24,530 bases of DNA from a virus. The translations under genes were made by a program, and so were the position numbers. Where the stretch lies: positions 1 to 24,530 of IMG/VR virus record IMGVR_UViG_3300047476_001557; one strand, written 5' to 3'. Below the pieces are notes generated by a model. The model did no database searches and was not told the origin of the DNA. It saw nothing but the letters and a program-made list of their open reading frames with translations. Below, one piece after another: positions 4,361 through 22,781 of this stretch. Position 1 is the first letter of the stretch, and each line of letters opens with the position of its first letter.

Positions 4361-4651
4361 TTATGATAATATCGATAGGTTAATCGTACACACGTTGTCG
4401 TTTATCACAATTTCAAAAGCACAACCAGTTCTACAAACTAAAAATTTAGATAATTCACAATTATTTGCATCTTTAATTATTAACATAATTCCAGGTGCAT
4501 AATTAAAAATTGCTGGTAAATAGAAATATTCTATCGGTGGTACATTTGTACCAATAGTTCCAATAAATGTATTATTGTTTCCGTAATAATCTGAAACATA
4601 AACATCAAATGGTGATGTACCTGTTATGGACGTTATATCTATTCTTGACAT
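4361..4651 (-). CDS. Stand-alone Cys-containing module protein, 96 aa
   Basis: Unrecognised family, but clearly a paralogue of the N-terminal 85 residues of the next gene (219 aa). Shared points in order are SITGTSPF versus AVSGTPPF, D-(x)4-NN-T, YFYLPAIF versus YYLPPIF, a hydrophobic strand (IMLIIKD versus VILQVSD), N-C, and L-CR-x2-C-FEI. Here the protein ends about 15 residues after FEI with no Thr-Pro linker. It may be a free copy of the module, for example a subunit completing a ring or trimer, or a product of gene duplication. The ATG overlaps the stop of the 919-aa gene by one base (TAATG), so translation is probably coupled. Position in the adhesin block points to a small virion protein; the function itself is unknown. 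Confidence 0.75.
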   Translation of the reverse strand: MSRIDITSITGTSPFDVYVSDYYGNNNTFIGTIGTNVPPIEYFYLPAIFNYAPGIMLIIKDANNCELSKFLVCRTGCAFEIVINDNVCTINLSILS

Positions 4652-7410
4652 TAGGTTTCACAATTAATATCGTATTGAATGATTAAATCTATAACAACTT
4701 GTTGGTTTGCTAATTCACCCTCAGTTTGTATTGATATTACACTTGAATTATTGTCCACCGTGACTGACGAAACACCGGGAACTGTTAATAGTAAAGTTTC
4801 AACAGTATCGTACCATTGTTGGTCAGTAGGAATATCTAATAATGTTGTACCAGTATAAAATGATTGTTGATATGTAATACCACTAATAACAGCTTCAGCA
4901 ACATATGTAGCAGAACTTAAAACACAATTAGTATTACCTGATGTTAAATCATTAAATCCCTCATTTAACATTTGTAAAATTCCACGTTGTGTACCTGATG
5001 TAAACACAAAATCAGTTTCACACATTGTATAAATTTGATAAGTTGTTTGTACGGAATTACAATTAATTGTTGAGTATCTTGTTTGTACACAAGAGTTATT
5101 ATCAGTAATTGTCAAAGAGTAGGTACCACCTGTAAGACCCGAAACATATATGTCTTGTGGATTTAATGGTACATTATCTGACCATAGGAAAGTAAATGGT
5201 GGTTCACCTGATGTAATTAAAGCAGTTAATGTTCCAGTGTCACCACTACCGCAACTTGTTGGGTATAGGGAGAAATTAACACTTGATGAAATTGGTAATG
5301 TTACCGTACCTGTTTGTGTACATCCGTTAGAGTCTGTAACAGAATATGTGTAATTACCAGAACTCAAAGAATTAAAAGTAACATTCAATGATGATGAATT
5401 AATTGATGAACCGTCACTCAATTGAAACAAATAAGGAGCTGTGCCTCCCGATGATAATATTAAATTAATTGAACCATCGTTGTTATTACAAGTTCCACCT
5501 GTATAATAAGTCGTAACACTAAATAAATTTTCCGCAATTATTGTAACATTTTGACTATATGAACAACTACTATCATCTTGAATGAAGATAGTATAATCAC
5601 CACTAGTTAAATTAGTAAATGTTTGAACCGTTGAATTTGTGGTAATACTAATGGTGTTAGAGTCGGGTTTTACCAATGTATATGTATATGGTACTGACCC
5701 CCCAATTAACGAAACAAGTATTTGACCGTCATTAGCGCTACAAGTTGAGTTTATAGTATCAATTTCTACGGTATAAAAAGAATTTGGTGTTTGTATTGAT
5801 GTGTCAAATTGTATCTTACAAAGAGCAGCATCAGTAATTAACACACTAAACAAACCGGCAGATAAACCAGTAAATGTATATTCTTGTGAATATGTGACAA
5901 CAAATGTTCCATTAGAACCAGAATAAAAATAAGGTCCTGTTCCACCGGTAATCGTTAACAATAAAGCCCCGTCAGAAGTAAAACAAGTTGGTGTTTGAGC
6001 ACTCCAAGAACCCAAACCAACTGATGGTACATAATCAATAAATGCCGATTCTGTTTTAATACAACCATCTGCAGATGTTACTGTACAAGTATAAGTTCCT
6101 GTAGTTAAACCTGTGATTGAACTACCTGTTGTACCATCACTCCACAAATATGTAAATGGTGCGTTCCCTGTTACACCTGTAACAAAAATTTTACCTGTTG
6201 GGCTAGCACATTGAGTATCATTTACAATATAAAATCCAAAATCTAATGTGTTTGAAGAATAAACAATACAAGTATCTGTAGTTGCGGTACATCCACCATC
6301 ACTAATTGCCGTTACAGAATAAGTTCCTGCGGATAATGAATCAAAAATCGCAATACCATTATTTGTTGATTGTGAAGAAATTAAATTACCACTATTATAT
6401 AAATAATAATTTACATTCAAGTTACTTGAACTTGCCGATACGGTCATACTACCATTGTATAATCCACATGTTGTATTTGTGATGTTAATAAAATCAACCT
6501 CAAAATAATCTTCAACGATTGCTGTAATATAAAACTCATTATTTACAGGTGCGGTGGCATCATTGGCTCTGATGTGGTAAGTACCTGCAGGTAAACTATC
6601 TTTATATGAACCCACACCCAATTCAGGGTCATACCAATCAAAGGTATATGGTGTTGTTCCACCTGAAGCGGTAATTTGAATGGCACCCAATGATGATACA
6701 CAAGTACCTGTAATATTAAGAGTATAAGCAAACGCATTACCATTTCCAAATCCACTCAATGTTGGTGTTGGAGTTGGGTAATTTGAAGGAGTTACCGTTT
6801 GTGTTGGAGTCGTTGAAGGCGTAATTGTAACTGTAGGTGTTACAGTTGGAGTCGTGGTCAGTGTAGGTGTTGGTGTAGGTGTTGTCGCACATGGTAAAAC
6901 ACCAATACATGTTGAACAATCAGGATAAACCGCATATGAAAATGTGGGTGCTGGGTCTACATATATTGTTGAACCTGTGTATCCTGTTATAACTGTTGCA
7001 CATAAATTTAATGTTCCACCGGTTCCATTATAATACAATGCAAATACCGCACCATTTACATAATCATCAGCTAATTCAATATCACCACGTCTGAAACTAA
7101 ACGTTGAACCGTCACAACAAGCCGAAAATGTATAATAAACATTATTTGGATACATGTCCGTATTTACAGACGGACATCCTGAGGCAGAATTACAAGCACC
7201 AGCAACATTTGTTGCCAATGGTGTTAAAAATGTTTGTTTTGGTGATGAACCACCAGTTCCAAAATAATAGTAACAAGCACCATCACCACTATAGATAACA
7301 TAACTTTGGTTGAATGTCCAAGTAGCTGTATTATCAATTTCAAAAGTTTTGGTAATGACTGGTCCTGTACCCGAAAAACAGTTTCTAAAAAATGCGTTAA
7401 CTAATGCCAT
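4651..7410 (-). CDS. SprB-repeat adhesin-like virion protein, 919 aa
   Basis: Residues 1-174 are a Cys-rich N-terminal domain (CCDGSTFSF near 98, CSTC at 165-168). Residues 176-219 are a Thr-Pro linker. Residues about 228-788 contain seven divergent repeats of 70-85 residues built as T-x-C, then DG-x-I, a GGT-PY-Y segment, L-AGTY, and D-x-GC. The clearest copy has APFTYLWSDGTTGSSITGL followed by GTYTCTV. This is the SprB/PKD-like repeat pattern known from Bacteroidota gliding adhesins. Residues about 790-919 resemble the C-terminus of the 984-aa protein upstream. No signal peptide is visible, which fits a virion protein rather than a cell-secreted adhesin. It lies 24 bases after the 984-aa gene, and its stop overlaps the next ATG. 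Likely role: tail-borne host adhesion, with the repeats as stalk or sugar-binding units (inference). Confidence 0.85.
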   Translation of the reverse strand: MALVNAFFRNCFSGTGPVITKTFEIDNTATWTFNQSYVIYSGDGACYYYFGTGGSSPKQTFLTPLATNVAGACNSASGCPSVNTDMYPNNVYYTFSACCDGSTFSFRRGDIELADDYVNGAVFALYYNGTGGTLNLCATVITGYTGSTIYVDPAPTFSYAVYPDCSTCIGVLPCATTPTPTPTLTTTPTVTPTVTITPSTTPTQTVTPSNYPTPTPTLSGFGNGNAFAYTLNITGTCVSSLGAIQITASGGTTPYTFDWYDPELGVGSYKDSLPAGTYHIRANDATAPVNNEFYITAIVEDYFEVDFINITNTTCGLYNGSMTVSASSSNLNVNYYLYNSGNLISSQSTNNGIAIFDSLSAGTYSVTAISDGGCTATTDTCIVYSSNTLDFGFYIVNDTQCASPTGKIFVTGVTGNAPFTYLWSDGTTGSSITGLTTGTYTCTVTSADGCIKTESAFIDYVPSVGLGSWSAQTPTCFTSDGALLLTITGGTGPYFYSGSNGTFVVTYSQEYTFTGLSAGLFSVLITDAALCKIQFDTSIQTPNSFYTVEIDTINSTCSANDGQILVSLIGGSVPYTYTLVKPDSNTISITTNSTVQTFTNLTSGDYTIFIQDDSSCSYSQNVTIIAENLFSVTTYYTGGTCNNNDGSINLILSSGGTAPYLFQLSDGSSINSSSLNVTFNSLSSGNYTYSVTDSNGCTQTGTVTLPISSSVNFSLYPTSCGSGDTGTLTALITSGEPPFTFLWSDNVPLNPQDIYVSGLTGGTYSLTITDNNSCVQTRYSTINCNSVQTTYQIYTMCETDFVFTSGTQRGILQMLNEGFNDLTSGNTNCVLSSATYVAEAVISGITYQQSFYTGTTLLDIPTDQQWYDTVETLLLTVPGVSSVTVDNNSSVISIQTEGELANQQVVIDLIIQYDINCET
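5047..6729 (-). repeat. Seven SprB-like domain repeats (protein level)
   Basis: Repeat boundaries judged by eye start near TGTCVSS, TTCGLYN, TQCASPT, PTCFTSD, STCSAND, GTCNNND and TSCGSGD. Each repeat has two Cys, one near its start and usually one in a D-x-x-C motif near its end. Sequence identity between copies is low, so this is an old protein repeat rather than a recent DNA tandem duplication. Confidence 0.75.
6754..6885 (-). repeat. Thr-Pro linker coding repeat in the 919-aa gene
   Basis: Codes residues 176-219 (TPTPTPTLTTTPTVTPT type), joining the Cys-rich N-terminal domain to the SprB-like repeats. Third copy of this linker type in the window. Confidence 0.8.
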
Positions 7411-11303: not shown

Positions 11304-11828
11304 TTAATTAATTAACATTTTATTTGATTTTATCAGATTATCATATTTCCATAATGGTCTTAAATTTGTGTAATAATTCAAGTTACATATTTCTTCTTCA
11401 TTTTTACCACTTGATATCGGAATAATATGGTCAAGTTGCCACTCACCATAATTTTCCCAACTCATACCTTCAATAAATTTAGATTCAATATATTGTCTAA
11501 ATTCTTCAATTTCGATACCTAAACAATCAAAAGTATTTTTAGTTTTATTTTTAATGATATTACATATTCTAGCTCTCATATTACCCATTAATCTATAATT
11601 AATATCATCCAACCTTCTATTTTTTTGATACTCTGAATTATATAATGGATTTAGTTTACGATATTCTCTTTGATACTCAGTTAACTTTTCTCTATTTTCT
11701 TTATTATATTTTTTTCTTTGTTCAGATTGACATACCTTACAATGACTTCTTTTACCAAACTTACCTAATTTTTGGTTATTAAATTCATTAAGCTCTTTTG
11801 ATAAACCACATATTGAACAAACTTTCAT
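11304..11828 (-). CDS. Freestanding HNH homing-type endonuclease, 174 aa
   Basis: DNA endonuclease of the phage HNH type. Counting from the start chosen here, residues 4-33 form a zinc-binding pair CSIC (4-7) and CKVC (30-33). A basic, Tyr-rich helix follows (QRKKYNKENREKLTEYQREY). The catalytic HNH region is at 132-169: LDHIIPIS with D133-H134, NYYTNLRPLW with N155, and KYDNLIKSNK with N164. A start at 11864 (12 residues longer) is also open, overlapping the 359-aa gene by 11 bases. I prefer 11828 because the MKVCSICG start is usual for the family and a TATTTATT element sits 11 bases upstream. The gene interrupts a run of structural genes and looks more AT- and Lys-rich than its neighbours, which suggests later arrival. 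Such genes normally spread by cutting related phage genomes that lack them. Confidence 0.88.
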   Translation of the reverse strand: MKVCSICGLSKELNEFNNQKLGKFGKRSHCKVCQSEQRKKYNKENREKLTEYQREYRKLNPLYNSEYQKNRRLDDINYRLMGNMRARICNIIKNKTKNTFDCLGIEIEEFRQYIESKFIEGMSWENYGEWQLDHIIPISSGKNEEEICNLNYYTNLRPLWKYDNLIKSNKMLIN

Positions 11829-11853
11829 ATCAATAAATACTATTTTTATTTTT

Positions 11854-12933
11854 TTATGTAACATTAAAAAAACGATATCCGTAATTTATTAAGTCCCCAA
11901 GGTTGTCTACCTCACCTATTCTTTGGACTCTTTCATAGGCTGAGTTTTTTCCTCGTTCAATGAATACATTTGATTGTACTTCTGCTTGAGAAATTATTCC
12001 TAAAAGTAATTCATCTTTTACTAATGGGTCTTGAACCATCCAATCTTCAGTTAATCCTGATGATTGAATGAAATAAATTGTGTCCCCATTGGCATAATCA
12101 TAATAGTCCACATTTTGTATTGTGTAAGCAGTATACACCAAATTCATTTCAGTTATTATACCATAATCTTCACCATTTTTTTGTACGGGAACTAATAACG
12201 GATACTTAACCGCTCCGTATTGTGCCAAGTCAGTAATTCTTGATGCCGTATATCCACTAACCACAAATGGTACCGTAACATATGCCGATGATACTTGGTC
12301 AGCAACTAAATTGACAGCATCACCCGTGAATATATAATCATATGATATTGGTGTTGCAGACCATGAACCGGTGTTTGGTGTAAAGTATGCGGTTCCTTGT
12401 GGATTAAAATTTGGTACATCAACATATGGTGTTTGAATTTTTTTCTGTACCTTTGTATTACCCCAAGGATTAAATTGTGATAAAGTAATTGTATATTCTT
12501 TTGGAATAGAGGCATAAACGTGTGAGATAGAATTTGGAGTATAAGATGTAATTGGTTCAATAGGTGAACCATCCCCCCAATCCACCGTGTATTGTGATAA
12601 CTCCAAGAATGAATTAAATTCAATATCGGCAGTATTATATACATTCCATAAATAAGGGTTTGTTGTTGTAGATGAAAAAATAAAATTGGTTACAACATTT
12701 TGTTGTGAGATTGCACCATCAAATGTAGAATAGTATCCCAAATCAACGGTGTTCTGAACCAAAAGAATTGGAACGGTAAGTCCTGTAAGTAGTGATGTAT
12801 AGTTTGTATTACCCGTTAAAGTTTGGGTCATAGATGAATACACACCATAAGTCTCACCTGAATAAGTGACATCATGAATAATTGTCTTTAATACCTCAGG
12901 GGACACCCTGATTCTCATTACTTGTGTTTCCAT
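11854..12933 (-). CDS. PKD-domain virion protein, 359 aa
   Basis: Probable structural component of the baseplate or tail periphery. Residues about 110-167 form a PKD domain: QYTVDWGDGSPIEPI (WGDG at 119-122), SHVYASIPKEYTITL, then an NPWGNT turn and VQKKI strand. PKD domains are beta sandwiches common in surface proteins and in tailed-phage tails. The N-terminal 100 residues are strand-rich. The C-terminal 60 residues (about 300-359: GIISQAEVQSNVFIERGKNS, then RVQRIGEVDNLGDLINYGY) look compact and polar and may be the particle-binding end. Its ATG overlaps the stop of the 259-aa gene by one base (TAATG), so the pair is probably coupled. The HNH gene follows directly. The family beyond the PKD domain is not recognised. 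Confidence 0.75.
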   Translation of the reverse strand: METQVMRIRVSPEVLKTIIHDVTYSGETYGVYSSMTQTLTGNTNYTSLLTGLTVPILLVQNTVDLGYYSTFDGAISQQNVVTNFIFSSTTTNPYLWNVYNTADIEFNSFLELSQYTVDWGDGSPIEPITSYTPNSISHVYASIPKEYTITLSQFNPWGNTKVQKKIQTPYVDVPNFNPQGTAYFTPNTGSWSATPISYDYIFTGDAVNLVADQVSSAYVTVPFVVSGYTASRITDLAQYGAVKYPLLVPVQKNGEDYGIITEMNLVYTAYTIQNVDYYDYANGDTIYFIQSSGLTEDWMVQDPLVKDELLLGIISQAEVQSNVFIERGKNSAYERVQRIGEVDNLGDLINYGYRFFNVT

Positions 12934-13712: not shown

Positions 13713-15390
13713 CTATCAACGGTTGTTCTACAATCTGATACAAGTCAGTTATGTCAAATGACGCACCTTCAGGATAAAGTCTGAAAGGTATGTTTGTGAA
13801 TGGATAGTGTGATTCATTTAAGAAAGGATAATCAACCCCCCTTCCTAAACTATCAATGTATCCATATGAGTATATATCTCTCCATATCCATTGTTGCAAA
13901 TTATTTGAGAAATAAGCGTAATTTGGTACACCCTCAACAAAGGTTGAACCAGCAGTTTCAGTATAATCTGAAAATACCTTTAATGTTATTGGATTGTGAG
14001 TTTGATAATAATATCCGTCAGGGTTTGAGTTGTTTACAGGTGATGTGTTGAATGCTTTTCCATAATACGTCATCTTATTCATATATGGAGAAATAACTCT
14101 CTCAACCTGTTCTATGTCGTTCCATTCACACCAATCACCATACATCGTGTCACCACTACGTCTTGGTAGATTAACTGTGAAATCATATGTTACACCACTT
14201 TGAGTTCTTGAATACCCCGATGTCTGAACATTCTCCAAAGAATTATTATTTGTTTGACTCCACCAAGGGTTTGTTTGACCTGGCGTCATATTGAATTTCC
14301 AACCACGTCTTAATTGATTGAACCATCCCATATATCCATTGAATTGGAATGATGCGAAAATTTGTGTTACAGGCTTCTTATTGTTATCCAATTGGTTGTT
14401 GATTTGTAAATCACGAGCCATGGTAACATTATATGTCTTTGAACTTTGGAAGTTCGTAACCCTACCAATCTTATTTGGTGTTAATGATGAAAACTGATAA
14501 AAACCCAGGTCTTGGAATGGGTTTAATTCAAATCCGTTATTGGTGATGATTGAATCGTGGGGGTCAGTAATAACCTTGTGGATTCTTACATAATATCTTG
14601 ATTTGGTTTCACCTGAATTATTAATATTAACAATTCTCTTAAACACACCTTGATTTCCTGTATTAAAGGTTGAACCAGTGTATCCAATATTTGATAGATT
14701 GAAGATGTTGGTATCTGAACCAAGGGCTCCGTTTCCTAAACTATAAACTTGAAACAAATTGTTTGTGTCATAACTAAATGATAACTCAACCCACTCACCT
14801 ACCGTTAAACCATGTGATACAGGACAAGTACATTGAATTACAGGAAAACCATTGTCAGAACCTTGTGTAATTGAAAATGGTATTCCATCACCAGATAACC
14901 AAGGATTCAAACTTGTTCCGTTTGTAAAATAGTATTGCATTGGAACTGTGTAGTCATTTTCATACGGATATGTCATAACAATACTCCAATTGTACGATGA
15001 AGCACTTTTGGCCTCAAATGAAAGTTGTTTGTTATCAACATCAGTTCTGATAAATTCAAATTCTTGATAAGTCGGTAATCCACTCCATATACCATTGGTC
15101 ACCGATTTTTCAGGATTGATGTAATAAAGATTATCTCTGAAAATATTATAGTTAGTAAAACCAACTAAGTTATTCTCATAAATGTATGATATTTTAATCG
15201 TTGGTCTGAACGATGTTGATTTTTGTCTTTCACCATCAAATACCGTAACAAGATTTAAGGATACTGTTCTGTCATAATCGATTACCTCAGATTGGGTTTG
15301 CAATAATTCTGCCTGCAAACTAATATCGGTATTTGGTGCTGACTTATATCTTAAGTCAGGTTTTATAACCACAAAATTACTTTTAGACAT
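13699..15390 (-). CDS. Putative baseplate-associated structural protein, 563 aa
   Basis: Not recognised. The protein is strand-rich throughout, with high Asn, Tyr, Ser and Thr and few Cys (CTCP near residue 190; WCEW near 422). Notable segments are VTVFDGERQKSTSFRPTIKI (about 48-67), NPWLSGDGIPFSITQGSDNG (about 162-181), SHGLTVGEWVELSFSYD (about 193-209) and an aromatic stretch FNGYMGWFNQLRRGWKFNMT (about 350-369). The end (TDLYQIVEQPLIDGCE) is acidic. The ATG overlaps the end of the 1593-aa gene by 8 bases, and its 3' end overlaps the 259-aa gene by 14 bases. In T4 the genes after gp6 are gp7 and gp8, but I see no convincing gp8 signature here. The virion role comes from context; an enzymatic role is not excluded but no motif supports one. 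Confidence 0.72.
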   Translation of the reverse strand: MSKSNFVVIKPDLRYKSAPNTDISLQAELLQTQSEVIDYDRTVSLNLVTVFDGERQKSTSFRPTIKISYIYENNLVGFTNYNIFRDNLYYINPEKSVTNGIWSGLPTYQEFEFIRTDVDNKQLSFEAKSASSYNWSIVMTYPYENDYTVPMQYYFTNGTSLNPWLSGDGIPFSITQGSDNGFPVIQCTCPVSHGLTVGEWVELSFSYDTNNLFQVYSLGNGALGSDTNIFNLSNIGYTGSTFNTGNQGVFKRIVNINNSGETKSRYYVRIHKVITDPHDSIITNNGFELNPFQDLGFYQFSSLTPNKIGRVTNFQSSKTYNVTMARDLQINNQLDNNKKPVTQIFASFQFNGYMGWFNQLRRGWKFNMTPGQTNPWWSQTNNNSLENVQTSGYSRTQSGVTYDFTVNLPRRSGDTMYGDWCEWNDIEQVERVISPYMNKMTYYGKAFNTSPVNNSNPDGYYYQTHNPITLKVFSDYTETAGSTFVEGVPNYAYFSNNLQQWIWRDIYSYGYIDSLGRGVDYPFLNESHYPFTNIPFRLYPEGASFDITDLYQIVEQPLIDGCE

Positions 15391-18300
15391 TTGGTTCGGT
15401 TCCTAAATATTGTTGTACGAATTTATCCATCGCTGTTTTACCTCTTTTTAATCCAAAGTAAAAATACCACGGTGCACTTGTTAATGTGCGTTCATTTGTT
15501 GGTTTTGTTGGTACTTTATTATAAGTACCATCAGGGTTCCTTTGGTAGATATATCCATAAGCATTTTGTATCAAGTTATTATTACCTTGGAAATAAGGTT
15601 GTAACCTTCTATCCAATTCTTGGTATTTTTTACTATCAACGATTGGATTACCACCATATGTATACCACTCATTATCTTGACTACCAAAAATGGTTGGTTC
15701 TCCTTTTGTCCACGCAGTATTAGTCCATTTGTAAAAAGGAACTTCTTGTGATTTGGTTCCCAAGTAATCAGCAATTAATGTAGTACCTGTAAACGTTCTA
15801 TCTATTCTTCTTGGCGATATTAAATCTCTATTTTCACTATAACCACTATAAAACACACCAAATACAGGACCACCAGTCTTATCACCACCAACATAAATTG
15901 GGTTGTCACCAGTAACATTTGGGTCATCGGGATAATTTTCTGCCGTAAATGGTACAATACCATATTGTGAATTGATTTGTAACATTTGTGCGAAATCACC
16001 ATCAACCCTGTCTTCACTTCTACTAAACAAAGCATTGACTGTACCCGTACCAAAAATAGCACTTGTAAGACTTTGTAAGAAACTTTGATTAACCAATCTT
16101 GAAACAACAAAAAGTTGTAATAAATTAGAATCGTCACTCCAAGAAGTTGAATTGAATCGATTCATTTGGTATCCAAAATAATTAGGGTCTTTATTTACCT
16201 CACTCTGCCAAACATATTTAGGACCCATATCCAATAATGTTGTTGGGAATAAAATGTTTTTAGTATTTACTGGTTGTGAGAAAGATGTTGACGCTCTTCC
16301 ACCAACAAAATTAGTTCCGTTATATGGACTTGAACGATAGTAAAAATTACTTGATGTTGGTTCAAACACTAAAAGGTCGCCACAATATAAATAATTAACG
16401 TTTTTGTCACCCGTAATTAAATTTGTTGATACCTGTCTATTATACGGTCTATTATTTGAATCAAAGAATACTTTGGATGTGAAAGGGAACGCAAACAATG
16501 AACCGTTAACCCAAGAGTTTACAAAGGTATGTGATAACACACCTCTACAAATAGCAAAATTCATTCTGAATCTTTGTAACCATTCGTAAAGAGAAGACCA
16601 ATCACTAACTAATGTTAATATAGGAGTGTTTACTAAAACATAACAACCATTTTTTACAATTACACCACCAGCATTATTATTACATTCATTAGTACTTGGT
16701 AATACAATAAACTCACCATTTTGATTTGTGTAACATGATAAGTCAACCATACCAGCACATGAGAAAGAATCAATTACTTTATTAATTGTACCACCTGTAG
16801 TTACATCAGGATTGTTTGTTGGGTTAATTCCACCAGCACCTGAGGCACTTCCCGTAATTGCTGAATTACCATTATCAGTAATGGTTACATATACTAAATT
16901 ATTAGACGCTTGACCAGCATAATTATTATTTTCAATTGTTTGTGGTTGTGAACCAATTGGTAATCTATCACTTCTCATTACCAATCTTTGACTATACATT
17001 GTCAAATTTTTCGCAGGATATTTTGGCGCGAAATAAATTGCTGGTAACATACCATTATTATTATCACCATTAAAAGGTGTTACAGTTGCATATGGTTTAT
17101 AATAGATATAAGAACCACCTTCAATATATTCACTTCCTTTATATCCAACCCCATTTGGTGTGAATTGTTTAGCCAACAATTCTCCTGAAGAACCGACACT
17201 AACCATTGAACTAGTTAATAATGTATTAACATCTGATGTAGGTTTGAAAACATTAATCTGTGTTTGGTCTAAAGACGAATAATATTGTTGTAAATTTGTC
17301 GTATATGCCGAATATTGAGTTCCTGCCGTAAATGTATATGATGGATAATACAAATAACCTGATTGGTTTTGAGTATTATCAGTAAATTCATTATGTCTAA
17401 CATTCTTCAAACCAGGTTGTACAGGAACGTTCAAAAAGAAATCACCTGTAACAGTCTTGTTGTTCCATCCACTGTATCCAAAAATTCTTGATAAGTCATA
17501 TTTAATTTTCTTTCGACCACTACTTGGGTCAACACCTCTTACCAAAAATATCATACCTAAACTTCCACCTGCCCAATTTTCTAAATAATTACCATAACTA
17601 TCTGTACCTACATCGTTACCTTGGTCTTTGAAAAAGGTTATTTGTTCTGAAATTTGATTTAATAAACTTGATGATAATGAATTTGAATTATTTGAAACAA
17701 ACTCATCATACGTTGTTCCTGTAATTACTTGGAAGTATTCAATATCACTCGAGAATTTGTAATTAGTTGTCTGTGCACTTGACACGCCACTCAACACATA
17801 ATTAACGGTTTTTAAGGTCTGTGTTGTTGGGTCAGCATAACTAACTTGAATTGTTTGACCTTGTTTAGTTGTTCCTGTAATACCTGTTGTATTACCTGTT
17901 GAAACCGCCTTAGGGTTAGGGTCATTTGAAAGTTGTGGTTGTTGGAAACTTAATAATTGACCTGAAGTTAAATTTGATGAAATACCTGGGTCAACAAATA
18001 AAACCATAATATTATCGTAGTGAAATAAATTAGGATTTGTTCCGTTCAATGTTGGTTCAACAACAACTTTTATTCTGTTTGAACCGGGATAAACATCAGA
18101 ATCAAAATATTTTGATTTTAAGTTAAAGTTATTTACTGTTTCCCAAATAGGTAAATTATTAATAAAACTATAACCACTATTTTTTGGTTGATAAACAGGT
18201 GTCTTTAATGTAGCATTATTAAAACCTGTACCCGCTAATGTGATTTGGAATGTCTCATCACCTGTTATCCAATTTGTTGATGTGAAAAAATCTGCATTTG

Positions 18301-20164
18301 GTGAAACAACATCGGATGATGAAGTTTTCTCAATTTCTTGCGTTGTAGGATTATTTCCTGTTTCTTCACTACCACCACAATCACACAATTGACATTCAGG
18401 GTAACTTATATTTGGTAATGTTATCTTTTTGAATGGTTCACCAATATTGTCAAAAATCTCACCAAAAGATGGTGGTTGTTGACAGTCAAGACTAATTCCA
18501 GGAATTGCATCGACAACCTTACAAATTCCATAAATAATCCAAGCAATAACACCATAAACAAATGTAAATAAGATTCTAAATAAAGGCCAAATAAAAGCTA
18601 ATACATGTAAAATAGGTATAAGCGCCAATAAAATATAATAATTTATTGGTAAAAATATGTTTAATAAAAACACAAAGAAGTCAAAACTTTGAACACCGTC
18701 AGTTGCAGGGTATTTATTATTTTCACTGGCACATGAAGAATCTGTGATTTCTTTAATACCAACAAATTTAGACCTGTTAAAACCTTTCTTATATTGGTCG
18801 TAATGTTGAGATACCGTGTAAACTTTATTATAGTCCATTTCATAGAACGTATCTTTACACGCAATCGCGTCGGCTTGATTTGTATACCCACTCCAATTAG
18901 TTCCAAAATAATATGAACCTATAAACTTTTGATAGTTGGTGTCACCTGTGTTTACAATATATGCCGGGTCATTATCAGCATCCACCCACCCATATTCTTT
19001 TACATTGGGAACCAAGAAATAACCTCTTCTAATTTCCTCACTTTCAAAATTTGTTGGTTGAGTGTATTTTATTTTGAATCTATATTTTCCTTTTGTTGGA
19101 ATACCAACTGTTGGGTCTTGACTGAATACTTGTTCACCAAATTCATTGGTAACAACATAATTCAAATTCATAGGAACATCTAAAACCCAAGTACCATCAC
19201 CATCAATAACTTTACCCCCTTGTGGTAATGTACCTTGTTCTAATATTGGTCTTCCTTGAGTATCTTGATATATTGTTTGTCTAACACTAATAATTTCACC
19301 AGGCCCTACAGATAAATTACAAAGATTACCCATATCTCTTGGTGGTTTACAATTCTTCTCAACCGCCTCATCATCGATACCTGTAACTAAAGAACCCATG
19401 AATATTGCACTTGGTTGGATATTAATTCCAACACCCCTTAAATCAAAGTCATTTCTTGCGATATTAATTTGACAAACTTCAGGTTGACCCCAAAATGGAT
19501 TAACATTAACACTTTGATTAATATTAACAATTTGTGGTAATGAATATAAATTTGTAGATGACTTAAAGTTAACTCCATCTAATTGGTCAGCACTTGCCCT
19601 ACCCATTCGGATTAAATCTTGTGGTGATTGTGAAAAAGGACCGATGTCCGATAAATCACAATCCATAACTAAAGTGTGAGCACCAACAGGAACCCCCATA
19701 ATCATATAGTCACCACTTCCGTTTGTTTTTACCGAAAACTTATAATACTTGTCATATACTTCAATAACGGCTGGATTTGTTAACACATCATTTCTTGTAG
19801 GAAAAGTTCCTGTTGGTATATGACCTGTGTGTTGTTGGTCATAAGGTAATAAATTATATCTGTAACCGTCTTCATTTACATCTGTTAATGATGTGTAAGG
19901 GTAAAGTGTTGATATAATATCATTATTGGCATCATCATCTGTTAATGGAACAAATACCGAAACCTTAACATTTGGAACTCCATAACCCCCATTGGCAACC
20001 ACACGACCAACCACCACACCATAATCGGCACACATTCTTGTGTAAACGTCTTCCGACCTTACTTTTAACGAAAGTATTTCAAGTTGTTCGAAATCTTGGT
20101 CTAACTGAATACTAATTTCTCTGTCGACCCCGACCTGTGTTTTTAATCTAATTGTTTCAGGCAT
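15383..20164 (-). CDS. Giant baseplate-region protein with carboxypeptidase-regulatory-like domain and internal hydrophobic segment, 1593 aa
   Basis: Largest gene of the window, probably a peripheral baseplate or tail protein. Residues about 45-175 look like a carboxypeptidase-regulatory-like beta sandwich: GVVVGRVVANGGYGVPNVKV at 49-68, DGYRYNLLP at 99-107, then VKTNGSGDYMIMGVPVGAHT at 145-164. Residues about 180-480 continue strand-rich with several Cys. Residues about 491-555 are strikingly hydrophobic (FFVFLLNIFLP, YYILLALIPILHVLAFIWPL, FTFVYGVIAWIIYGICKVV) and would score as two or three membrane helices. A Cys cluster (ECQLCDCGG) follows near residue 588. The remaining 1000 residues are Asn, Ser, Thr and Tyr rich, with no motif I recognise. 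The start ATG lies 73 bases after the gp6-like gene, and an inverted repeat lies in that gap. The 3' end overlaps the 563-aa gene by 8 bases. The virion role is inferred from context. Confidence 0.75.
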   Translation of the reverse strand: MPETIRLKTQVGVDREISIQLDQDFEQLEILSLKVRSEDVYTRMCADYGVVVGRVVANGGYGVPNVKVSVFVPLTDDDANNDIISTLYPYTSLTDVNEDGYRYNLLPYDQQHTGHIPTGTFPTRNDVLTNPAVIEVYDKYYKFSVKTNGSGDYMIMGVPVGAHTLVMDCDLSDIGPFSQSPQDLIRMGRASADQLDGVNFKSSTNLYSLPQIVNINQSVNVNPFWGQPEVCQINIARNDFDLRGVGINIQPSAIFMGSLVTGIDDEAVEKNCKPPRDMGNLCNLSVGPGEIISVRQTIYQDTQGRPILEQGTLPQGGKVIDGDGTWVLDVPMNLNYVVTNEFGEQVFSQDPTVGIPTKGKYRFKIKYTQPTNFESEEIRRGYFLVPNVKEYGWVDADNDPAYIVNTGDTNYQKFIGSYYFGTNWSGYTNQADAIACKDTFYEMDYNKVYTVSQHYDQYKKGFNRSKFVGIKEITDSSCASENNKYPATDGVQSFDFFVFLLNIFLPINYYILLALIPILHVLAFIWPLFRILFTFVYGVIAWIIYGICKVVDAIPGISLDCQQPPSFGEIFDNIGEPFKKITLPNISYPECQLCDCGGSEETGNNPTTQEIEKTSSSDVVSPNADFFTSTNWITGDETFQITLAGTGFNNATLKTPVYQPKNSGYSFINNLPIWETVNNFNLKSKYFDSDVYPGSNRIKVVVEPTLNGTNPNLFHYDNIMVLFVDPGISSNLTSGQLLSFQQPQLSNDPNPKAVSTGNTTGITGTTKQGQTIQVSYADPTTQTLKTVNYVLSGVSSAQTTNYKFSSDIEYFQVITGTTYDEFVSNNSNSLSSSLLNQISEQITFFKDQGNDVGTDSYGNYLENWAGGSLGMIFLVRGVDPSSGRKKIKYDLSRIFGYSGWNNKTVTGDFFLNVPVQPGLKNVRHNEFTDNTQNQSGYLYYPSYTFTAGTQYSAYTTNLQQYYSSLDQTQINVFKPTSDVNTLLTSSMVSVGSSGELLAKQFTPNGVGYKGSEYIEGGSYIYYKPYATVTPFNGDNNNGMLPAIYFAPKYPAKNLTMYSQRLVMRSDRLPIGSQPQTIENNNYAGQASNNLVYVTITDNGNSAITGSASGAGGINPTNNPDVTTGGTINKVIDSFSCAGMVDLSCYTNQNGEFIVLPSTNECNNNAGGVIVKNGCYVLVNTPILTLVSDWSSLYEWLQRFRMNFAICRGVLSHTFVNSWVNGSLFAFPFTSKVFFDSNNRPYNRQVSTNLITGDKNVNYLYCGDLLVFEPTSSNFYYRSSPYNGTNFVGGRASTSFSQPVNTKNILFPTTLLDMGPKYVWQSEVNKDPNYFGYQMNRFNSTSWSDDSNLLQLFVVSRLVNQSFLQSLTSAIFGTGTVNALFSRSEDRVDGDFAQMLQINSQYGIVPFTAENYPDDPNVTGDNPIYVGGDKTGGPVFGVFYSGYSENRDLISPRRIDRTFTGTTLIADYLGTKSQEVPFYKWTNTAWTKGEPTIFGSQDNEWYTYGGNPIVDSKKYQELDRRLQPYFQGNNNLIQNAYGYIYQRNPDGTYNKVPTKPTNERTLTSAPWYFYFGLKRGKTAMDKFVQQYLGTEPNV

Positions 20165-20237: not shown

Positions 20238-22079
20238 TCAACTAAATGTAGTTGTCTGATAATTCTTAACTCTTACTACGATATCTTTAGATGGGAACCT
20301 TATTTGGTAGATTTGACTTGGTTCGGCAAATATTGTGTTATCTGTTAAAGATATTTTCTTTGTCGCTTCATCTGAGTATGGCATCGATGTTTGTGCTGAA
20401 CTATATTGTCCACCAACTTTTCCGTAAATTGAAATGTCCGTCAAACTGACAACACCATTTTCTGCTTGGATAAGTCTACTTAATTCTGAAAGAACAATAT
20501 TCTCACCTAATCCTCTTACAGCAGGACTAAAGAATGTTGTTACTCTGTCAATGACATTTGAAATTACAACCCCTGAGTTTTGTGTAGAATCTAACACGAT
20601 TGAAACTTCAACACCCAAGTCAATAACCTGAGCACTACCAATGGTAACATAATCATTAATCATTCGGTAATTAGATAAGTAATCAGCTAAGTTTTGTTTC
20701 AAGGTTTGTGAAACATCTGATGTTAAGTTACCACTCGCATCATATGATAAAACCTGAACATTAATCTTGTTATTATTTTCGGTAATTGATACTTTGGCAG
20801 GTGCACCAAACTCACCAGGCATGTTTCTGATAATTGCTTCATAATCATGAATCGTTACCGCTCTGTTTTGAGCTGCAAAGTTAAATGTTACATAATTTCT
20901 AACTTCTTCAGTTGATGGATAACCCGCACCACCAATTGCGGCTGTTACGTTATTACAAGTTAATGAATTGATAACTTGGTTGTTTAATATGTCAGATGGA
21001 CCTACAACTGAAAAATCAACAGCCCCAATTTGTGTAATTGTGTTTACACCCAAGTTTGTCGCTAAACCACCACCAATTCTATATTGGATAAACATTGTGG
21101 TATTTGCTTGTGGTGTATTACCCAATGACATTGAGTTGTTTTGATATCTTTGAATTTTCAAAGGAACATCCAAAGTTGTGAATTGTCTTAATTGGTCTTC
21201 AGCAGTATTGGTTCCTCCACCGAAAGTAATCTTCATAAAACCTTCAGGTGTGTATTCAGTGATAAATCTATCTTGTGTTTGAATATAGGTTCCAACTTTA
21301 ATCGCTGGGTCATCAGATGGTTTTGATGGGTCGGCAATAAACACTCTGTCTTCAGCTAAGGCTTGTACTTCATACCATCTTCCATTTGGACTTAAGAATT
21401 CTTGAGATGTTGGTACGTTTGAATACGCAGTACCTTCTCTCTGAATAATGGATGTAATACCCAAAACATTTTTTTCAGGTAAGAAAAATTCAAAAAAAGG
21501 TCTTACATCATTTGGTGTAATAACTCTTTTGAATACCTTTGTAATACCATTAACTACAGTTTCTCTTTTTGTGATTGTGTAATTAATAAGGTTATTATTA
21601 GCATCAAAATTTGGTATCTTTAATCTATTTGGAAAACCATCTTGGTTAAATGGTGATGCAAAATTTATATCGTAGATTGTTTCAAATACTTGTCCCGCAC
21701 CGTTAACCTGACTACCACGTCTTAAGATACCCAAATATCTTTCATCTTCTTTATCACCAAATGCCGGTACTGTAATTGAAAAGTCAACCAAGGCAACTGA
21801 TGGTCTCTGACCAGGAATTTTTAACCCATAAGTTCTTGCGATGTTATAGATTGATGAACGTTGTTGTGCGTATTGAAGAACAGTTTCTTGAATACTTCTA
21901 TCAATATGATAATGTAAATTATCTGCAACGGCTGCGTTCAAATCCAAAAACACAGAAAAAACCGAAGCGTCATTGAAGTTGTCAATTAATTCTGGATAAT
22001 ACGTTCTCGTATAATTGATAAGTTCCTGACGAATTGCTTGGAAATCTCTTACCGTGTATGAAATTTTTCTTTGAGCCAT
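20238..22079 (-). CDS. Baseplate wedge protein, gp6/gpJ-like (Baseplate J family), 613 aa
   Basis: Forms the wedge ring that links baseplate arms in contractile tails. Length is near T4 gp6 (660 aa) and twice P2 gpJ. The N-terminus (YTVRDFQAIRQELINYTRTY, residues 8-27) and the following NFNDASVFSVFLDLNAAVAD stretch are the usual opening of phage gp6-type proteins. The central part has the Baseplate-J pattern: GAGYPSTEEVRNYVTFNFAA, then RAVTIHDYEAIIRNMPGEFG near residues 405-424, then AKVSI. This corresponds to the T-x-x-DYE-(x)n-PG-V-A-KV motif of the family. The C-terminal third (DYVTIGSAQVIDLGVEVSIV; then ENIVLSELSRLIQAENGVVS) also fits. It begins 5 bases after the gp25-like stop. The W-J order matches P2. 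A TATTTA element lies 12 bases before the ATG. Confidence 0.9.
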   Translation of the reverse strand: MAQRKISYTVRDFQAIRQELINYTRTYYPELIDNFNDASVFSVFLDLNAAVADNLHYHIDRSIQETVLQYAQQRSSIYNIARTYGLKIPGQRPSVALVDFSITVPAFGDKEDERYLGILRRGSQVNGAGQVFETIYDINFASPFNQDGFPNRLKIPNFDANNNLINYTITKRETVVNGITKVFKRVITPNDVRPFFEFFLPEKNVLGITSIIQREGTAYSNVPTSQEFLSPNGRWYEVQALAEDRVFIADPSKPSDDPAIKVGTYIQTQDRFITEYTPEGFMKITFGGGTNTAEDQLRQFTTLDVPLKIQRYQNNSMSLGNTPQANTTMFIQYRIGGGLATNLGVNTITQIGAVDFSVVGPSDILNNQVINSLTCNNVTAAIGGAGYPSTEEVRNYVTFNFAAQNRAVTIHDYEAIIRNMPGEFGAPAKVSITENNNKINVQVLSYDASGNLTSDVSQTLKQNLADYLSNYRMINDYVTIGSAQVIDLGVEVSIVLDSTQNSGVVISNVIDRVTTFFSPAVRGLGENIVLSELSRLIQAENGVVSLTDISIYGKVGGQYSSAQTSMPYSDEATKKISLTDNTIFAEPSQIYQIRFPSKDIVVRVKNYQTTTFS

Positions 22080-22084
22080 TTATG

Positions 22085-22546
22085 TTAAATATTGATAATA
22101 ACAAAATCTTTCGAATTGAAAACATCATTACTGATAGAATAATCAATTCTTACTTTTGCGGTATATTCAGATACGTTCTGATTTGGTAAGGTTAATTCGG
22201 GATTTACAACATTTCCTGCAGTGGTTACAGTCTCACCAGCGGCCTCAGTTGTTGGTGCCGTAATTGAAATGTTTGTTAATTGTAATTGAGGCATGAACTT
22301 CTCAACAGAATCTCTAATTTCAGATTCTATATTTCTAAATGTAGGTCCATCCAATGGTTCAAAGATGTATTCGTACAATCTTGTACCAAAATCAGGTAAA
22401 AAATATCTTGACCCTTTTCTCGTTAATAATAAATGAATTAAGTTACTTCTGATTTCCTCAGCAGCATAATCCGTTAAGTCCAAATACTTTCCGTTGAAAG
22501 AATCAACAAAGGGGAAACTTAAACCATATGTTTTACCATTAGCCAT
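22085..22546 (-). CDS. Baseplate wedge protein, gp25/gpW-like (lysozyme-related family), 153 aa
   Basis: Small wedge protein that joins the baseplate to the tail sheath in T4 (gp25), P2 (gpW) and related injection machines. The GPW/gp25 signature is clear at residues about 29-66: EEIRSNLIHLLLTRKGSRYF, then LPDFGTRLYEYIFEPLDGPT. This is the NL-x-LL-T-x-x-G-x-R, P-FG-x-L, (L/I)FEP pattern. Residues 70-90 continue the usual helix (RNIESEIRDSVEKFMPQL). There is a short Thr/Ala-rich insertion near 95-115, and the end is a strand pair (YTAKVRIDYSIS, FVIINI). Its ATG overlaps the DUF5522-like stop by 8 bases, and the gp6-like gene follows after 5 bases. TATTTATA lies 12 bases before the start, at 22551-22558. 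Confidence 0.93.
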   Translation of the reverse strand: MANGKTYGLSFPFVDSFNGKYLDLTDYAAEEIRSNLIHLLLTRKGSRYFLPDFGTRLYEYIFEPLDGPTFRNIESEIRDSVEKFMPQLQLTNISITAPTTEAAGETVTTAGNVVNPELTLPNQNVSEYTAKVRIDYSISNDVFNSKDFVIINI

Positions 22547-22781
22547 TGTCTATAAATATAGTTGTGTTTCCTTTTTTGTGAGCAGGAAAAAAAGGACAGT
22601 GTCTACAACCTGAACCACAACAATGTCCTCGACTTAAATGGAATTCTTTAGTAAAAACATATTTTCCGTTTTCAATATAAAAAGAAGAAGGGGAAAGTTG
22701 TTCACTTCCCCCCTCAATAGATGTTTTTATATCTTCTTTATTTAATTTCACAAGCTCCACCAGCACATGCCAACTCACCAC
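22539..22781 (-). CDS. Small Cys-rich DUF5522-like protein, up to 80 aa
   Basis: Function unknown. From the ATG at 22781, residues 41-63 carry the DUF5522 hallmark: YVFTKEFHLSRG followed by CCGSGCRHCPF, with Cys at 54, 55, 59 and 62 and His at 53 and 61, which could bind a metal or act as thiols. Members of this family are usually only about 50-70 residues, so the first ten residues may not be translated. A GTG at 22749-22751 (reading VKLNKEDIK) gives 70 aa and cuts the overlap with the reductase from 44 to 14 bases. The C-terminal tail (AHKKGNTTIFIDNG) overlaps the gp25-like start by 8 bases. The family is frequent in Bacteroidota genomes, which supports the host guess. A link to reductase thiol chemistry is possible but only suggested by adjacency. 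Confidence 0.78.
   Translation of the reverse strand: MVSWHVLVELVKLNKEDIKTSIEGGSEQLSPSSFYIENGKYVFTKEFHLSRGHCCGSGCRHCPFFPAHKKGNTTIFIDNG
22551..22558 (-). promoter_or_regulatory. TATTTATA element upstream of the gp25-like gene
   Basis: Coding-strand TATTTATA begins 12 bases before ATG 22544-22546. It lies inside the last codons of the DUF5522-like gene, so a signal here would be embedded in coding sequence. The same 11-12 base spacing is seen for the gp6-like, 919-aa and HNH genes. Confidence 0.35.

Follow-up and report, generated by a model that had tools for sequence, protein, structure and literature searches.

A large conserved protein in a phage baseplate operon

The window analysed here, meaning the whole stretch of DNA under study, is the 24.5-kb viral record IMGVR_UViG_3300047476_001557 (24,530 nucleotides). 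Its minus strand encodes a ribonucleotide reductase, a gp25-like baseplate wedge protein (22085..22546) and a gp6-like baseplate wedge protein (Baseplate_J; 20238..22079), directly followed by a confirmed open reading frame for a 1593-aa protein (15383..20164), hereafter the big protein; all window features given below lie on this strand. An 80-aa DUF5522 protein (22539–22781) is encoded in the interval between the reductase and gp25-like genes. Beyond the big gene are five more conserved genes, including an endonuclease VII-like gene within the tail operon (11304–11864), which is probably a mobile insertion as it was not found at that site in the listed relatives that cover it. The strand also encodes a collagen-like tail fibre and a 919-aa SprB-repeat-like protein (4651–7410), the latter with weak similarity to the variable part of the big proteins of a sister clade (clade 2, below).

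The gene order gp25 – gp6 – (small protein) – big gene was found in the window and in most of the 24 loci compared. At one locus among those compared (L117:5006-5929), gp6 and the big gene are separated by a gene for a 308-aa membrane protein that has an alpha/beta-hydrolase-like motif. A contractile sheath gene was present in 10 of the 14 long records sharing the operon, and several related records with the same operon are 200–362 kb long; these are therefore huge contractile-tailed phages. Matches to SprB and Por_Secre_tail in clade-2 relatives, together with the presence of relatives in Bacteroidota MAGs, offer a lead, and only a lead, to Bacteroidota hosts; phage contigs are not reliably binned, and relatives were placed in other phyla as well.

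Architecture and relatives of the big protein

In both AlphaFold2 models the big protein is strand-rich over most of its length, with a single long helix. Residues 1–490 (18695..20164) are the family’s most conserved part (pN/pS 0.08–0.12), and the first 260–490 residues are common to all deep relatives. Residues ~46–250 (19415..20029) weakly resemble a transthyretin-like/CarboxypepD_reg-like domain, below curated cut-offs: matches to PF13620 had E-values of 0.034 for the window protein and 0.0023–0.16 for five relatives, all under the cut-off, and the N-terminal model matched transthyretin-like or Ig-like structures at Z scores of about 5–7 (all <8), which possibly reflects only a common arrangement. 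Cys478 (18731..18733), just before the long helix, is invariant in clade 2 too. The helix itself, our proposed membrane-inserting element, spans residues 496–552 (18509..18679) and is hydrophobic apart from a polar stripe; His520 (18605..18607) stands on this stripe and is H in 33 of 34 non-redundant relatives. After the helix comes YPECQLCDC (residues 588–596; 18377..18403), an instance of a clade-1-specific motif, YP[DE]CxxC(xC), which might bind metal. A strand-rich, variable region (residues ~620–1180; 16625..18307), missing from compact homologues, precedes the C-terminal core (residues 1185–1593; 15386..16612). The core carries the motif N-[DS]-W-x-x-G-x-[LIM], seen in the window protein as N1216-x-W1218-x-N1220-G1221-x-L1223, and in compact homologues this motif stands shortly after the helix region. 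Invariant cysteines are unusually many (residues 45, 231, 282, 436, 478, 591, 594, 1136, 1144, 1161, 1174 and 1206); in a structural protein made in the cytoplasm, these could form disulfides or metal sites.

The big protein gave no Pfam, PHROG or PDB-sequence match above cut-offs, the exception being a SprB repeat in one clade-2 relative. Searches of family profiles against the sequences of solved structures returned nothing at E up to 1, tblastn with five queries against 50,697 phage records gave no hit, and Foldseek found no significant match for the C-terminal model (394–1593). A relative is present in BFVD: A0A8S5LA66, an uncharacterised protein from the metagenomic Myoviridae sp. ctPuP5, with 32% identity over 615 alignment columns and a Foldseek E-value of 3.4e-44. 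No cultured relative of the family was found in our searches. The post-gp6 genes of the nearest annotated phages, Flavobacterium immuto and Microcystis Mel-JY01, and of the metagenomic LR756508, had neither a family profile match nor a hydrophobic stretch of the kind described next.

The hydrophobic segment is not a chance feature

A first-pass annotation of the window had drawn attention to a nearly charge-free hydrophobic stretch at residues 491–555 of the big protein, and its location proved exact (18500–18694, with residue 491 at 18694 and residue 555 at 18502–18500). Only four of the 65 residues are charged (D495, R530, K549 and D552), 6% compared with 16% for the whole protein, and residues 496–529 form a charge-free run of 34 residues. 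The best 60-residue octanol sum was −34 kcal/mol, compared with −25 for the lowest of 5,000 shuffles of the same protein; it is this sum that lies beyond the shuffles, as the 19-residue KD peak alone does not. With KD 2.0 over 50 residues and an octanol value of −16.6 kcal/mol over 19, the segment is a membrane-grade helix, and it is conserved. The Cys cluster ECQLCDCGG, described in the same annotation as following shortly after, is indeed at residues 590–598 (18371–18397).

The annotation had named absence of the segment from close homologues as something that would refute its reading, and we found it instead in essentially all relatives recovered in the window’s own clade and in the sister clade. 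One scan alone yielded 596 relatives in public viral contigs. In the first scan, every relative recovered had a hydrophobic peak in the same region, and in the second and third scans the peak was likewise present except in L129, in which the reading frame is broken, and L190, in which the contig ends before the site. The break in L129 (L129:7491-11222) falls in or near the hydrophobic region and may be an error, a frameshift or an intervening element. Each of the 157 full-length relatives scored contained two or more 19-residue windows under −3 kcal/mol in the segment region; as that threshold is met elsewhere in these proteins too, the strong evidence is the sum over 50–60 residues.

Across 34 non-redundant relatives, column conservation in the segment was 0.31–0.47, compared with about 0.75 in the core, and despite this residue turnover mean KD held steady at 2.0–2.2 and charged residues at 2–6%. 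Segment pN/pS (0.10–0.34) was looser than that of the core and clearly constrained. Its length ranges from about 60 to >100 residues, and in some relatives the ~100-residue versions contain Gly-rich helices typical of multi-pass membrane proteins. Because the segment occupies the same place in essentially all clade-1 and clade-2 relatives although its residues change, we conclude from these sequence comparisons that it is real and selected, and not there by chance.

In a tree of the N-terminal region, clade 1 (to which the window belongs) and clade 2 were each set apart from the remaining sequences by a single branch (100/100 and 100/99). Clade 1 has a long segment, with YP[DE]CxxC in nearly all members; clade 2 has a segment without the YPDC motif; and in the deep relatives L192–L197 the segments are mostly shorter. 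Two further deep relatives, the compact L191 (766 aa) and L198 (732 aa), have no segment. In L191 the N-terminal core runs to the N[DS]WxxGxL motif with no intervening hydrophobic stretch, so the segment lies between two halves of the core, and these helix-less relatives show that the core protein can exist without the helix.

One long predicted helix with a narrow polar stripe

The first-pass annotation expected the segment to score as two or three transmembrane helices. By a 19-residue window scan it does so (octanol −9.5, −16.6 and −8.9 kcal/mol at residues 491, 511 and 531), but AlphaFold2, in two jobs on different fragments, predicted a single continuous 57-residue helix, 496–552, at pLDDT of about 80–90; the models are of monomers and have low pTM (0.49 and 0.54). 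Such a helix would be ~85 Å long, beyond what one bilayer needs. In clade 1 the family-averaged hydropathy was most strongly periodic at 100.5 degrees per residue, with a permutation p of 0.0002, and the polar stripe was found both in the window protein alone and in clade 2 (permutation p about 0.0002). The phases of the two halves of the helix, 57 and 30 degrees, roughly match, which supports one continuous helix.

The less hydrophobic positions (498, 502, 506, 509, 513, 520, 523, 527, 530, 534 and on) make one stripe that takes about a third of the helix positions. Clade 2 on its own has the same pattern, with an invariant Cys and two invariant Asn, and a third Asn in 13 of 17 sequences, spaced 8 and 7; the three Asn make up a ladder.

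A long continuous helix with periodic polar positions would also suit a soluble structural element that never meets lipid, whether as the core of a bundle of three or six helices or buried in a groove of the baseplate; virion proteins can bury long hydrophobic helices. In a soluble coiled coil, however, the narrow stripe is expected to be hydrophobic. Here the pattern is reversed: the narrow stripe is polar and about two thirds of the surface is hydrophobic. The prospect raised beforehand, that the segment would turn out to be the core of a soluble bundle, thus did not come true, as this inside-out pattern is unlike such a core. Variation in segment length between relatives also speaks against a soluble helix, and so does the membrane protein that accompanies the segment in clade 2; we regard this explanation as improbable.

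A small membrane protein accompanies the segment in clade 2

In clade 2 (L163–L190), a small protein of 105–127 aa is encoded directly upstream of the big gene at 28 of 28 loci (for example, L185:5646-5990). It begins with an MGCNCK-like sequence and has a single strong hydrophobic helix bearing a P-I-I-[NM] motif; nearly all members also have an acidic tail, the whole following the pattern MGCNCK...LPIIN...WFMF...LNK...poly-acidic...VDVEDIT. Its PHROG matches were weak (E 0.002 or worse) and to families of unknown function. The small protein occurs in all six clade-2 long records and in none of the eight clade-1 long records; in clade 1 we found no small protein upstream of the big gene in the loci examined, and none anywhere in those eight records. 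In clade 1, six seeming candidates for an upstream membrane protein turned out to be fragments of gp6, and two DNA matches to the MxCxC start in clade-1 records were unrelated proteins.

A small membrane protein with an MxCxC-like start (MCC in L196) is encoded at the same place in the deep relatives L192–L197, and L191 and L198, which have no segment, have no such protein. The presence of the segment is therefore accompanied either by a neighbouring membrane protein or, in clade 1, by a longer segment with its own Cys motif. As there are few independent changes on the tree, this correlation is suggestive and not proof. In L163 and its relatives the hydrophobic regions of the big and small proteins share a G-F...P-[IL]-I-[NM] pattern, as in LGFLIGILLLPLINIAIIW and MGFLIYVMNALIIPIINVLI, perhaps because the two have faces that match within one bundle, or because of a duplication.

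The small membrane protein, whose gene separates gp6 from the big gene in clade 2 and in deep relatives, also speaks for another reading, in which the membrane concerned is that of the infected cell. The helix, with the small protein in clade 2, could tie the growing baseplate to the inner membrane and then, when the cell lyses, be shed or masked. A role in assembly is favoured by the possibility that a membrane-grade helix around residue 500 is inserted in the producing cell while translation is under way; co-translational insertion would naturally act on a hydrophobic helix at about residue 496. This arrangement would be likened to the docking of T6SS baseplates on their membrane complex; in Bacteroidota the T6SS baseplate is recruited to the multi-pass membrane protein TssN (PMC10781749). 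Set against such an assembly anchor are the lack of a small partner in clade 1, the need to extract the baseplate from the membrane, and the big protein itself, which with its variable region, adhesin-like (SprB) in clade 2, looks like part of the virion. We consider it possible, although rather unlikely.

The segment lies outside the putative tape measure

In three long related records we scanned 38–50 kb of the tail/baseplate region, comprising some 80 ORFs, for 50-residue octanol scores. The big protein, which only one of the three records covers in full, scored −27 and the small clade-2 protein −9.4, and no other ORF fell under −3.2. The segment is thus as unusual for a baseplate operon as the first-pass annotation held, the small protein being the only other tail/baseplate gene product in the related records with a hydrophobic stretch.

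Putative tape-measure genes in these records scored +0.9, +15.2 and +16.9. The first, an 822-aa gene in the clade-2 record G004, matches the tape-measure family phrog_167 (E 1.7e-9); in the clade-1 records G006 and G008 the genes are like-placed, after the tube and hub genes, and assigned as tape measures by position only. Matches to the tube family PF06841 were all under the cut-off. Tape measures are known to carry channel-forming hydrophobic stretches (PMC10038345, PMC10996793 and PMC5099701), and the first-pass annotation had offered a tape-measure-like element as one reading of the segment. The big protein, however, is strand-rich and not mostly helical, and is encoded beside gp25 and gp6, with the phrog_167 match in a separate gene and like-placed genes in the two other records. 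That it is the tail tape-measure protein is therefore very improbable indeed, and the description can be kept only by analogy.

A proposed role in membrane insertion at host contact

The membrane character of the segment is well supported. From the operon, we infer that the big protein is present in the virion. Our preferred reading, which could equally prove right or wrong, is that the segment serves a large protein of the baseplate or tail tip as a membrane-inserting module, exposed and inserted at host contact. While the virion is free, each subunit would keep its one hydrophobic helix packed on those of the other subunits or on the baseplate. A change of baseplate shape at the host surface would expose the helices, and these would then enter a host membrane together, forming an oligomeric bundle whose hydrophobic sides face the lipid and whose polar stripes are turned inward, to anchor the tail and possibly line a passage. 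In the sister clade, the small one-helix protein encoded upstream would share the job of insertion; in the window’s clade, the longer segment and YP[DE]CxxC motif may have replaced it. Entry is favoured over assembly indirectly, as the tape measure, the known home of such segments, is empty here. The great length of the predicted helix counts against this reading, as do the deep relatives that have the core protein and no helix.

The earlier suggestion that such a piece might help to cross the inner membrane is one we do not endorse. A wedge protein at the periphery of the baseplate would encounter the outer membrane before any other and stay at the cell surface, from which a route to the inner membrane is hard to see; inner-membrane crossing has no more support than anchoring in the outer membrane or a part played in assembly. 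More specifically, and tentatively enough that we doubt it as a whole, the phages may have a two-part baseplate insertion apparatus outside the tape measure, in which long inside-out helices act with a small Cys-rich, one-helix partner in one lineage, or with its functional replacement in the other, as an oligomeric anchor or pore in the membrane at firing.

How contractile-tailed phages get their DNA across the envelope once the tail has contracted is still an open question. The membrane-active tail parts that we found described are segments of tape measures and the hub legs of T5, and here the main membrane-grade segment among the tail/baseplate genes is in a baseplate-operon protein. The natural series of a long segment, a shorter segment with a small partner, and neither makes the question approachable by comparison, in a family of at least 596 public-contig relatives that has no Pfam or PHROG entry.

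Comparison with known systems

Membrane-active hydrophobic stretches in phage tails are already known; our literature searches turned up no description of one that lies in a protein of the baseplate operon and is paired with a small membrane protein. By gene position, as the first large gene after a gp6-like gene and near gp25, the big protein resembles T4 gp7 and TssG, with no solved structure matched by the family profiles at E up to 1. To our knowledge, T4 gp7 has not been described as having a large hydrophobic helix.

The Bacteroidota T6SS with TssNQOPR is likewise a contractile machine whose baseplate works beside membrane proteins (PMC10781749). In that system, however, membrane and baseplate functions belong to different proteins, and the membrane proteins do their work in the producing cell; neither the big nor the small protein had a Pfam match of the TssNQOPR kind above the cut-off.

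Membrane helices are predicted in two regions of three in the TP901-1 tape measure (PMC5099701) and five are predicted in the R-type diffocin (PMC10996793), and deletion of the first hydrophobic region in TP901-1 abolished infection (PMC5099701). These are tape measures by gene and function, whereas the putative tape-measure genes of the huge phages have no such stretch. In phage T5, pb2* has 46 hydrophobic residues, taken as two membrane helices that form a channel; in the proposed T5 model the pb2 stretch would be expelled and would form an outer-membrane channel, with the hub legs anchored in the outer membrane (PMC10038345). General family searches gave no relation between pb2, a siphophage tape measure, and the strand-rich baseplate-operon protein described here, but as a virion protein with a long hydrophobic stretch pb2 makes T5 the closest working model.
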